DNA from: Planctomycetota bacterium | GTDB taxonomy: Bacteria; Planctomycetota; UBA1135; GCA-002748355 | NCBI GenBank assembly: GCA_026984035.1 | Contig: JALSSW010000040.1 | Location: 1 to 64,000, forward strand | Length of the DNA: 64,000 nt | Reading direction: 5' to 3' | Shown here: one piece after another, positions 42,313 through 46,018 of the stretch | Layout: each line of letters opens with the position of its first letter | How positions within the stretch are numbered: the first letter of the stretch is position 1 | Notes under the pieces: generated by a model | The model's database searches: none | What the model was told of the DNA's origin: nothing | What the model saw: the letters and a program-made list of their open reading frames with translations, nothing else | Translations under genes and position numbers: made by a program

Positions 42313-42882
42313 ATGGATTGGTTGGAAAGTGCAATTCGCAAGAGTCTTGAAACCAAGGAGGCCCTTTTGGCGCAAGGGCTTGGTCCCATTAACGAATTCC
42401 TCAACTTGGCTGAGGAGTGCATCGACAACGGCGGCAAACTGTTGTTCTGTGGAAATGGAGGGTCTTCTTGCGACGCAGCTCATGCAGTGGGTGAGTTGGT
42501 CGGTTGGTTTTTGGAAAAAGACAGGGGGCCTCTGCCTGCGGTTGCGCTTGGACATAGCATCCCTTCTCTGACTGCCATCGCAAATGATGCAGGGTATGAG
42601 TTTGTCTTCGAGCGGGAAGTGGAGGCTTTGGGGAGGGAAGGAGATCTTCTTGTGGGGATTTCGACCTCAGGGAATTCGGAAAATGTTTATAGGGCCATGG
42701 CCCAAGCCCAGAGGATGGGCTTGGTTACCGTGGCATTGACGGGGGCGCGGGAGGGGCAGTGCGTGGATGTTGCAGATCTTTGGGTCCCCGTGCCTTCAGA
42801 GGAAACTCCCAGGATCCAGGAGAGCCACCTCTTGATCATGCACCTTCTTTGCGAAGCGCTTGAGCGGAGATCTGTCTCCTAA
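42313..42882 (+). CDS. gmhA: Phosphoheptose isomerase GmhA
   Basis: A 189-residue SIS-domain enzyme, which converts sedoheptulose-7-phosphate to D-glycero-manno-heptose-7-phosphate, the first step to LPS core heptose. The key region CGNGGSSCDAAHAVGELVG matches the family FGNGGSAADAQHIAAEL, and LVGISTSGNSENVYRAMAQAQ and the late E-x-x-H segment (RIQESHLLIMHLLCEAL) are conserved. The length is typical. It implies an LPS-like outer membrane and links loosely to the glycan locus at 46.6-55.3 kb; no gmhB or hldE is seen in the window. DnaA-binding DiaA-like relatives share the fold but usually lack nearby heptose context. Confidence 0.92.
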   Translation: MDWLESAIRKSLETKEALLAQGLGPINEFLNLAEECIDNGGKLLFCGNGGSSCDAAHAVGELVGWFLEKDRGPLPAVALGHSIPSLTAIANDAGYEFVFEREVEALGREGDLLVGISTSGNSENVYRAMAQAQRMGLVTVALTGAREGQCVDVADLWVPVPSEETPRIQESHLLIMHLLCEALERRSVS

Positions 42883-42898
42883 AAGATCCTGGATCCTC

Positions 42899-43843
42899 TC
42901 ATTTCCGCCCACGGATCTGTCCCAAGATTTCCTGGGCCATGTCTTCCAGAGAGGTTCCCTCCAGCTTATGTGCCAAGCTGCCGGCGATCATTTTGGCCTT
43001 AGCCGGGTTTTTCTCCAGAAGAGCTTGGGCCTCTTCAAGTTTGGCTTTGGCGTAATCGAGAATCTTCTCTTCAACAGGTTGGATCTCTAGTTGAACTTCG
43101 TGGGGGAGGTGTTGGGCCTTCTTTTTCAGGGACTTCAGCTCCGCCCAAGCGTGATTGAAGTCCTTCTTGCCCAGAGCAACAAGGGCTTTGCGCAAGGAAC
43201 CTCGGATCTTAAAGAGTTCTTTGCGAGTCAGTTTTGGTTTCCCGTGTTCCTTCCGGATGGTTTTCAAGTCGGTTTTAATCGTTTCCATAATGGTCTTGGC
43301 GCTGATCCCTCCTACCCATTCATTCATCTTTTTTTCGGTGAAGGGGTCCACGATGCAGGTGTGGGGGATCTTGCCTGACCTGTTGTAGCTGTTGGCCTTG
43401 CTCCGATTGAGTTTCTGCATGTCTTCCAGGGTAAGCCCCGGGAAAAGAGCAAATTCTTTGCGGGTTTTGCCGGTAAGGGGGTCCTTGACCTCGTAGGTTC
43501 GAGCGTTCCGATGCCCAGAGGAGACCCCCCGCTCGATACTTCCAAGGGTAATGACTTCGACCGTGGAGCGGCCTGCAAACTTAATATATTTCTTATTCTG
43601 CATCACGGCAGAATGCATTCCCCAGCAAGGGCCTCAGTAAAAGCCGTGACTGTGGACGACGATGGGGAGTTTAAGGAGTTTGGCTTCTTGAACAGCGGCT
43701 TTCCATGATTTGGCCAGGACGACAGAACGTTCGGGCTTGACCTTTTTGTCGCCCCGGGGATTGGCGACGGCAGTGGTGGAAAAGGCTGTAAGAGAAACCA
43801 AACCCAAAACGGCAACAGAGGTAAGGCTGCGTTGTGGCTTCAT
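42899..43843 (-). CDS. Secreted thioredoxin-fold selenoprotein (predicted), U-G-P-C active site
   Basis: Two same-frame ORFs (43843-43634, 69 codons; 43618-42899) are separated only by one TGA at 43636-43634. Read with selenocysteine, the product has 314 residues. Residues 1-27 are a signal peptide (LTSVAVLGLVSLTAFSTTAVA). Then comes a thioredoxin-like start, SWKAAVQEAKLLKLPIVVHS, and the motif HGFY-U70-G-P-C73-W, where thioredoxins have W-C-G-P-C. The segment IPHTCIVDP carries the likely cis-proline (Pro160). Between them is an insertion of about 40 residues; the last about 140 residues are helical and charged. AGGAG precedes the ATG. A SECIS-like hairpin lies at 43595-43614. It follows phosphatidylserine decarboxylase by 154 bp. 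A true stop or sequencing error is the alternative, but the position of TGA at the redox site argues against it. Confidence 0.75.
43595..43636 (-). promoter_or_regulatory. SECIS-like stem-loop just downstream of the in-frame TGA
   Basis: On the minus strand, 19 bases after TGA, ATTCTGC - CGTGAT - GCAGAAT forms a perfect 7-bp stem with a 6-base loop. The loop starts 26 bases after the TGA and has a G at its second position. Bacterial SECIS elements generally have the loop 16-37 bases after UGA with a G in the first two loop positions, so this fits. It lies inside the coding sequence, as expected for bacteria. Confidence 0.7.
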
Positions 43844-43997
43844 GCGAGGTTCTCCTGGGATATGGGGATCTCCCGGCTCAGGTTTACGAAGAACAGGAGT
43901 TCATTCGTTCTTGCCGGTCGGTACGAATCGTTAGTCTACGGTCCTTTTTGTACAATTGAGGGAAGGTCTTCTCTTTTTCTGAAGAGATTTTTTTGCA

Positions 43998-44867
43998 TTA
44001 TGGATTCTCTCCCTGGGCTTCTCCTTGGGGAAGAGAAGCAAGGAGCCTCCCTTGTTGGATTTTGGAGGAATCCGCTGGGTATCTCCACAGGAGATCGGGG
44101 TTTTTCGAAAGGAGTATTACGGTCGAGCCAAAGGAAAAGCAGCCCAGGTCCTGTCCTTTGTTCACTTCCAGTGGCCCCTTCACTAGAGGCCCATGCCTCT
44201 CCCTGCTTCCTCGCTTGGTTCGGATCTCCGATAAGAAGGGAAACTGGATGCTTCCCACGTTGAGAGCTCCCACTGCGACCAAGGCCATTTCCCCCAAGGG
44301 GCTGTTTTTGAAGAGGAGGGAGATCCTCTCGTTCCGGATAAAAAGCCCTGGGATGGCTTTCAGGGCCGGAGGATTCACCGGAAAGAGCGTTCCGGGTACA
44401 TGGCTGAAATAGCTGATGGTCCCTGCAATCGGAGCGTGGATCCGGTGATAGTCGCCTGGGGCAAGGTAAAGCGTAACTTGTGAGCCTTCTTCAAAAGCTT
44501 CCGGATCTGGAAGTCCTCTTAAGAGTTCACGGACAGTGTAGGTCCAGCCTTTGATTTGTTGGATTTTTCCTCCCTGAATCCTGCCAGCACTCACGATCTT
44601 ACCGTCCACGGGAGAGCATAGGTCTAAGGGGCCGCCTTCGATGGGGCGAGCCCCCTCCTTGAGTGTCCTGGTGAAAAAGGCGCGAAAGCTGGGATAGTCC
44701 TCCAAGGGAAAGGCGCATTCTTCAAGTTGCACTCCATACCGCCGCGCGAAGGCTCGATAAAGAGGCCCTCGCAGAAATCGGGGAAGGGGAATGGATGTGA
44801 AAAACCCTGTCAAGCGAGAGAGACATTTTTTGGGAAGAGCTGTAAGGAGGATGCGGCGCAGGCTCAT
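43998..44867 (-). CDS. psd: Phosphatidylserine decarboxylase proenzyme
   Basis: A 289-residue enzyme that makes phosphatidylethanolamine from phosphatidylserine at the membrane. It is made as a proenzyme that cleaves itself between Gly and Ser; here the site is Gly247-Ser248 in FSFGSTVILL (the usual L-G-S-T has Phe for Leu). PVDGKIVSAGRI carries the catalytic Asp (residue 88), and APGDYHRIHAP the family His residues. The ATG at 44867 overlaps the stop of the HEAT-repeat gene (ATGA), so coupling fixes this start; a longer open frame from 44972 is not family-like. The length fits the classical Psd rather than the short archaeal-type form. Confidence 0.94.
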   Translation of the reverse strand: MSLRRILLTALPKKCLSRLTGFFTSIPLPRFLRGPLYRAFARRYGVQLEECAFPLEDYPSFRAFFTRTLKEGARPIEGGPLDLCSPVDGKIVSAGRIQGGKIQQIKGWTYTVRELLRGLPDPEAFEEGSQVTLYLAPGDYHRIHAPIAGTISYFSHVPGTLFPVNPPALKAIPGLFIRNERISLLFKNSPLGEMALVAVGALNVGSIQFPFLSEIRTKRGSRERHGPLVKGPLEVNKGQDLGCFSFGSTVILLSKNPDLLWRYPADSSKIQQGRLLASLPQGEAQGENP

Positions 44868-46018
44868 TTGGCAATTTCGGCTTGTTCCCATTTGCGCAGA
44901 AGGGCGAAGAAAGGAGCCCATGATGGGGGGAAATCTCCCGGGGCACGCCGGAGTCGTTTGCCGGGAGCCCATGCGATCCGAATATAGTCGCAGCGGATTT
45001 TTTTGGCTTTGCCAATAGGTTTTGTGGAGATCTTCTGAAAGAGGTGAAGCAATTGTTTCCCGTCAAGGTTCTTGGATCGATAAGGGGGGGATTCGCCGAT
45101 CCAAACGGAACCTTCTGCGTCGATCCGTAGAATAAAGTCACCCTTTCGGCAGGAGCGGCGCTCTGCCAAGAAAACGAATTTTGGCTCAGGGAAGGTTCCT
45201 CGTGCAAGGGCCGGAAGGCGATAGCTCCTTTTGAGGAGGAGGTGAATCTTTCTGTCGGCGAAGGTCGCAAAGGCCTGGGGATCTCGGGGAAGCTGGCCGA
45301 GCTTGGGGTCACGGAAATAACGTCTTAGGAGGCGGTGAGCTTCCATGCGAGGCGCTGCTGCAAGATCCAAGTCCAGGACGCGGTCTTGGAGGTTGAGGCT
45401 TTCGACCAAGACAGGTAGACCCATGGGGTCTCCGGTTTCGAGGAGGGTTTTCGCTGCCCCAATTCTTACTGCAGGGCTGGTGTCCGATAAAAACTTGCGG
45501 ATGATTGGGATTGCGGTTTTGCCCTCGGTATGTGCAAGCCCCTGCAGGGCAGCCAAGCGGATGCTGGCCGAAGGATCTTTCAGTTTGCGACAGAAAAGAG
45601 GGAGATCCTTTTTGTCACCATTTTCAGCAAGGGCACGCAGGGCCTGCGGGGGCCAGGGGAAACTGGGTTTATCGTGCACTTGGCGAAGCCAAATCATGGC
45701 TTTTGGGCTGCCAAGTCGTCCGAGAACCTGGACCAGCTCGGCCGAGAGGATTTCGATCCCATGTTTCGAGATAAAAATCGAAATCGCTTCCCATCCAGGG
45801 TTCCCCGCCCCTTTCAGTCGGCGGGCTGCCTGCACCCTGATTAAAGGGTTCCGGGTGCATGCGGCGCGCACGAAACGCATATAGCGGTTTTTTGGAGGAA
45901 CCTGTGAAGGTTTTGTGCTCACGGGTTTCCTTGGACCCTGAAATGTCTTGGGAGGGGAAGGCCTTTCCCGGCTTGAGATGGGAAGCAGGGCGAGGAAAAG
46001 AAAGCAAAAGGGAAGCAA
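44864..46018 (-). CDS. Secreted HEAT-repeat protein
   Basis: A 384-residue protein whose first residues (TTG start; LPFCFLFLALLPISSRE) form a signal peptide. Residues 60-230 are HEAT repeats: VRAACTRNPLIRVQAARRLKGAGN, LRALAENGDKKDLPLFCRKLKDPSASIRLAALQGLAH, IIRKFLSDTSPAVRIGAAKTLLETGD. The C-terminal 150 residues are an unrecognised beta-rich part (DFILRIDAEGSVWIGESP). The start is only 4 bp after the DUF3299-like gene stop and its stop overlaps the psd start, so the three genes are one operon. Function unknown; the TTG start makes the exact N-terminus less certain. Confidence 0.7.
   Translation of the reverse strand: MLPFCFLFLALLPISSRERPSPPKTFQGPRKPVSTKPSQVPPKNRYMRFVRAACTRNPLIRVQAARRLKGAGNPGWEAISIFISKHGIEILSAELVQVLGRLGSPKAMIWLRQVHDKPSFPWPPQALRALAENGDKKDLPLFCRKLKDPSASIRLAALQGLAHTEGKTAIPIIRKFLSDTSPAVRIGAAKTLLETGDPMGLPVLVESLNLQDRVLDLDLAAAPRMEAHRLLRRYFRDPKLGQLPRDPQAFATFADRKIHLLLKRSYRLPALARGTFPEPKFVFLAERRSCRKGDFILRIDAEGSVWIGESPPYRSKNLDGKQLLHLFQKISTKPIGKAKKIRCDYIRIAWAPGKRLRRAPGDFPPSWAPFFALLRKWEQAEIAK

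Follow-up and report, generated by a model that had tools for sequence, protein, structure and literature searches.

The Sec thioredoxin (PF00085) and the thiol:disulfide interchange selenoprotein (PF13098) are proteins in which selenocysteine (Sec) belongs to a UxxC motif on a thioredoxin fold and depends on a bacterial SECIS element, modelled as a stem of 4-16 bp and a loop of 3-9 nt, with a G in the first two loop positions and a spacing of 16-37 nt (PMC13188914). In planctomycetes, selenoproteins are reported in a 2016 genome paper (PMC4807772). The DsbD-gamma, DsbH and Thioredoxin_7 (PF13899) proteins combine the thioredoxin fold with export, a CxxC-type motif at the active-site helix and a cis-Pro, and in YbbN/CnoX (PDB 3qou) a thioredoxin domain is followed by a helical C-terminal domain. 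The gene described here shares features with each of these systems. It lies on contig JALSSW010000040.1 (GCA_026984035.1) of a Planctomycetota bacterium, the first 64,000 nucleotides of which were analysed as a whole and are called the window hereafter. Comparison with homologues confirms that 43843-42899 of the minus strand is one gene with an internal TGA predicted to be read as selenocysteine; the product is very probably a selenoprotein with a thioredoxin-type redox role, Sec incorporation being predicted from sequence.

From ATG 43843, the minus-strand frame runs for 69 codons to a TGA at 43636-43634, after which another 244 codons lead to the terminal stop, a TGA at 42901-42899; the internal TGA is the sole in-frame stop between the start codon and the terminal one. 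With the standard code the gene appears as two same-frame ORFs of 69 aa (43843..43634) and 239 aa (43618..42899), and the original prediction, that these ORFs share one frame and are parted by a single TGA, is borne out by the window sequence. So is its placing of this TGA at the first redox position of a thioredoxin motif (FY-U-GPCW), the full context HSHGFY-U-GPCWGMHS being of thioredoxin type. A scan of the window found 15 in-frame TGAs flanked by redox-like motifs, among which only that at 43636-43634 falls in a thioredoxin-type CxxC context. The gene is bordered by a SIS-domain, phosphoheptose-isomerase-like gene (42313-42882, plus strand) and by a gene that, by eye from the sequence, resembles phosphatidylserine decarboxylase (43998-44972, minus strand), with local synteny in four family members. 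The features of the locus are collected in Table 1.

Table 1. Features of the predicted selenoprotein gene, in window coordinates.
Feature	Position	Strand	Basis
Shine-Dalgarno-like AGGAG, 8 nt 5' of ATG 43843	43852..43856	-	Sequence
Complete predicted selenoprotein gene, 314 residues with Sec70	42899..43843	-	Full-length alignment of homologues across the internal TGA
Predicted export signal at the N-terminus: residues 1-32, hydrophobic stretch 8-27, AVA-N resembling a cleavage site	43748..43843	-	Low-confidence N-terminus of the model and hydrophobicity
TGA of codon 70, predicted to encode selenocysteine as the first residue of U-G-P-C	43634..43636	-	TGA in 72/84 homologues, Cys codon in 6/84
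Cys73, putative resolving cysteine of UxxC	43625..43627	-	Invariant in alignment A1, at least 90% conserved in alignment A2
SECIS hairpin: stem AUUCUGC (43614-43608), loop CGUGAU (43607-43602), stem GCAGAAU (43601-43595)	43595..43614	-	
Insertion of about 50 residues (109-159) within the thioredoxin fold	43367..43519	-	AlphaFold secondary structure
Pro160, putative cis-Pro before strand 161-165	43364..43366	-	Invariant in alignments A1 and A2; strand in model
C-terminal five-helix domain, residues 200-314	42902..43246	-	AlphaFold models
Terminal stop TGA of the same gene	42899-42901	-	

A translated search of 60 relatives recovered full-length matches through the TGA in G001, G002, G003, G006, G007 and, distantly, G010, the G001 homologue being 74% identical to the window protein over residues 1-313; another genome scan supplied the HyVt-576 homologue (L011). 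A profile search, which covered Planctomycetota only (392 genomes), matched 122 of these genomes at E <= 0.001, dozens of them full-length, and a search at class level around G067 brought in no further homologues. Essentially all the strong profile matches, chosen regardless of whether they carry a TGA, make up a set of 84 homologues. The Sec column of this set holds TGA in 72 cases, TGC in five, TGT in one and a different residue in the remaining six; TGA or Cys codons in this column were what the original prediction had proposed to look for. The TGA and the frame downstream of it persist down to about 20% identity and, in an alignment of 28 diverse members at 16-44% identity to the window protein (A2), positions 70 and 160 are invariant. 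Because full-length homologues across the phylum align through the TGA, a chance in-frame TGA is excluded. These comparisons support a large, phylum-wide family in Planctomycetota that is dominated by Sec, and not a one-off. In a quick, midpoint-rooted tree the six Cys members are scattered among the Sec members and require at least 4-5 separate changes; Sec is therefore probably ancestral and Cys derived, a reading of the tree rather than a proof of the ancestral state.

Between Sec and Cys, the family has a wide variety of residue pairs (GP, PG, PP, GG, PS, NP, GR), and a close relative has UPGC in place of UGPC (L011/L041). One homologue of the same family, in genome G004 (L008, 1486-2376, plus strand), carries GGA instead of a TGA in the Sec column (HKIDGPECK) and is possibly a catalytically altered or degenerate copy; G004 retains SelA and a TGA-containing selD despite this TGA-less gene. 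Two Sec paralogues lie back to back at L050, L059, L060, L063, L069, L072, L075, L077, L078 and L087. In L069, L072, L075, L077 and L078, from the family f63 genomes, they form a divergent pair in which a UGGC protein (HKDK/HKDN) is joined by one with UGRC or similar (HKDF), and these two may act as a pair. Three genomes (G207, G085 and G250) encode a Cys form as well as a Sec form of the family, and it is tempting to speculate that the availability of selenium might determine which of the two is used.

A SECIS hairpin is present in the family, marked by codon constraint in the form found in the window and by covariation in a second, GGUC form. The window hairpin has a stem of 7 bp and a 6-nt loop, CGUGAU, with 26 nt between the UGA and the loop. 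This form (AUUCUGC-CGUGAU-GCAGAAU) is common to the window gene and 13 close relatives and lies four bases farther downstream than the other. All 14 members use the codons CAT TCT GCC GTG; elsewhere in these genes CAT makes up 17% of His codons and TCT 6% of Ser codons, and a Cys homologue with the same HSA peptide (L043) uses CAC TCC GCG instead. The 13 distinct sequences vary too little to show covariation, and it is this codon bias, together with the loss of the hairpin in the Cys homologue, that supports the window form. The other 58 TGA members lack the codons of the window form and have a fixed-register stem of 5 bp, closed by a 4-base loop that reads GGTC in 27 of them and GTTC in 11. 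In these 58, 87% of the cells of the stem are paired, a share that falls to 36-51% once the strands are slid against each other; the 253 paired cells out of 290 also compare with a mean of 193.8 and a maximum of 216 in 500 shuffles, a test that is inflated by the kinship of the members, the slid control being unaffected. Changes occur on both sides of the stem, one pair being found as C-G, G-C, A-T and G-T and another as C-G, G-C and T-A. In members without the TGA, pairing of the stem equals that of their own shuffles, with no excess.

Folding energies point in the same direction. With codon-preserving shuffles, the mean fold z at +16..51 nt is -1.29 in TGA members (Wilcoxon p 5e-12) and -0.10 in TGA-less members, and other parts of the gene give values of about -0.4 or less pronounced. 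When the 48 nt that follow the TGA were put through plain dinucleotide shuffles, the z-scores were weak (mean -0.92 vs -0.64), and it took codon-preserving shuffles and pair counts in a fixed register to bring out the signal. Rfam returned nothing relevant at the gene. Both hairpin forms, the window type and the fixed-register type, fall within the bacterial SECIS model (PMC13188914).

The original prediction had also called for a search of the genome for selA, selB, selC and selD, and the first three were found. The assembly is a 90%-complete MAG in 210 contigs, in which selA is cut off at base 4 of contig C141, selB encodes 648 aa and selC encodes a tRNA-Sec with a UCA anticodon (74.6 bits). 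No selD was found in this MAG, the one weak match to TIGR00476 having been rejected as SelD since its sequence is that of PurM. All eight relatives examined have a selD, and in G001, of the same genus, it lies (C47:3469-4389, minus strand) directly downstream of selA (C47:4554-5645, minus strand). Because the window genome's selA leaves the contig end in the very direction where G001 places selD, an assembly gap is the likeliest cause of this absence. SelA occurs in every TGA-bearing genome tested; this agrees with the selenoprotein reading but carries no information, as SelA is present in nearly all of the genomes that were chosen. The selD genes of the eight relatives (L029-L036) each contain one in-frame TGA, which suggests that SelD is probably itself a selenoprotein in these bacteria.

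The window protein begins with a hydrophobic segment (maximum 13-residue Kyte-Doolittle score of 2.13), as do 80 of 82 family members, and is presumably exported. An AlphaFold2 model built from nine sequences has a mean pLDDT of 88.3, with residues 4-32 below 50. In this model a helix (71-81) begins at the UxxC motif, and thioredoxin-fold strands and helices extend to about residue 200. The suggestion that residue 160 is a cis-Pro agrees with its invariance in the 28 diverse members, the cis geometry being expected from the thioredoxin fold. The long insertion and the helical C-terminal extension that had been foreseen are also found in the model: the former, which follows the third helix and precedes the strand of the cis-Pro, adds a hairpin (E116-120/E127-131) and helices (H139-153), and the five helices of the latter span residues 207 to 313. 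In the PDB, Foldseek matches the model best to a DsbD-like C-terminal domain (3f9u), DsbH (2ju5), YbbN (3qou) and DsbD-gamma (1uc7), and nearly all of the 17 PDB matches at E <= 1e-3 are thioredoxin-fold proteins by name. The window protein scores 15.1 bits against Pfam Thioredoxin_7, below the 27-bit cut-off, and 21 of the 28 family members match this model at E <= 0.01. Modelled alone, the C-terminal domain reaches a pLDDT of 92.7; as it has no significant match in the PDB (best E 0.16), a TPR-like reading of it is unproven.

A mechanism may be suggested from these results. UGA codon 70 would be decoded as Sec by a bacterial SelA/SelB/tRNA-Sec/SelD system, directed by the SECIS hairpin within the coding sequence. 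Where the active-site helix begins, Sec70 and Cys73 would make up the UxxC redox pair, facing cis-Pro 160. Outside the cytoplasm, the Sec70 selenol would attack a disulfide or other oxidised sulfur of a partner protein, and Cys73 would then resolve the mixed selenosulfide. This would leave an Se-S bond to be re-reduced, most plausibly by a DsbD-type electron relay encoded in the genome. An exported thiol-disulfide reductase is our best single guess, and a modestly probable one, because: (i), the protein combines UxxC with a cis-Pro, (ii), it resembles DsbD-gamma and DsbH, (iii), it is predicted to be exported and, (iv), a DsbD homologue is encoded in the window genome. Export, the redox direction, the substrate and the electron donor are all inferred; that the C-terminal helical domain binds the partner is a guess. 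The gene neighbourhood contains no conserved neighbour or operon partner pointing to a substrate.

Two other activities of the same selenoprotein have to be weighed against the reductase. It could act mainly as a peroxidase or in methionine-sulfoxide-type repair, peroxide oxidising Sec70 and Cys73 resolving it: Sec confers high reactivity with peroxide and, in the 2016 paper, many planctomycete selenoproteins are proposed to act against oxidative stress (PMC4807772). We consider this unlikely, since the motif and the nearest solved folds are those of thioredoxin, DsbD-gamma and DsbH rather than of peroxiredoxin, GPx or Msr, none of which families is matched in Pfam. A disulfide-forming or isomerising role towards exported proteins, in the manner of DsbA/DsbC, would fit the predicted export, UxxC with a cis-Pro and an extra domain that could bind substrates; it too appears rather improbable, given that the nearest folds belong to the reducing DsbD-gamma/DsbH group and that DsbD is present in the genome. 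A selenol, moreover, is a poor choice for a strong oxidant that has to remain in its oxidised state.

Readings that do without selenocysteine fare far worse. A disabled thioredoxin-like gene, whose TGA stems from a genuine nonsense mutation or from faulty sequencing, might be entertained for a draft MAG in 210 contigs, but the same TGA in 72 of the 84 homologues, with the downstream frame conserved, makes this a negligible prospect, and the pseudogene, sequencing-error and two-gene readings were rejected on the conservation of the homologues. Reassignment of UGA throughout the genome to another amino acid, for instance Trp, would likewise explain an in-frame UGA that is read through. It is almost certainly wrong: TGA is the terminal stop of the window gene and of 8 of the 9 genes checked, the genome encodes a UCA tRNA-Sec along with SelA and SelB, and the substitutes at the Sec column of the 84 homologues are mostly Cys and never Trp. 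The terminal stops and the Sec machinery led us to reject reassignment.

The selenoprotein reading has consequences beyond this locus. Gene callers that treat TGA as a stop only will split every Sec member into two fragments, so that a recurrent redox family of Planctomycetota could remain invisible. The family may help to explain why SelA is widespread in Planctomycetota genomes, shows two SECIS registers inside one family and, with 72 Sec and 6 Cys members, offers a tractable natural set for the study of Sec-to-Cys exchange. It is fairly probable that we are dealing with a previously undescribed, Sec-dominated superfamily of exported thioredoxin-fold proteins that has radiated within Planctomycetota; its genomes would hold several paralogues each, its SECIS would come in two registers, and Sec, as the ancestral state, would have changed to Cys repeatedly.

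How does it compare with known families? The window protein reaches no family cut-off in NCBIfam 20.0 or in Pfam, and matches none of the NCBIfam selenoprotein families (TsoB, trx7_PDZ, VPGUxxT, SaoT, HUIPC) at E <= 0.01. A May 2026 inventory of prokaryotic selenoproteins contains no recognisable thioredoxin-fold family of the same motif and architecture and does not mention Planctomycetes; the motif UGPCW was absent from the papers searched, a prior mention in Haft and Tolstoy 2025 or Deng 2026 being possible. The Trx7/PDZ selenoprotein (NF041199) and TsoB (NF045694) have a Thioredoxin_7-like domain in common with the family, and some members show weak domain-level matches to them (best E 2.4e-05 and 3.6e-07, respectively). 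The window protein itself does not reach E 0.01 with either model (for TsoB, E 0.13 and 10.3 bits against a cut-off of 805), and the architectures differ, NF041199 being a CxxU protein with a PDZ domain and TsoB a rhodanese/DsbD-like fusion with two Sec. YbbN/CnoX, which is cytoplasmic and lacks Sec, shares the domain order, but the TM-score is low (0.27-0.29) and the C-terminal domain taken alone gives no better than E 0.46 against it. Unlike DsbD-gamma, DsbH and PF13899 proteins, the window protein has Sec in place of the first Cys, an insertion of about 50 residues and a five-helix C-terminal domain; predicted export, the insertion and the C-terminal domain also set its family apart from the PF00085 and PF13098 selenoproteins. 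With moderate confidence as to its newness, we regard it as a new family of a well-known kind, the thioredoxin-fold UxxC selenoproteins.
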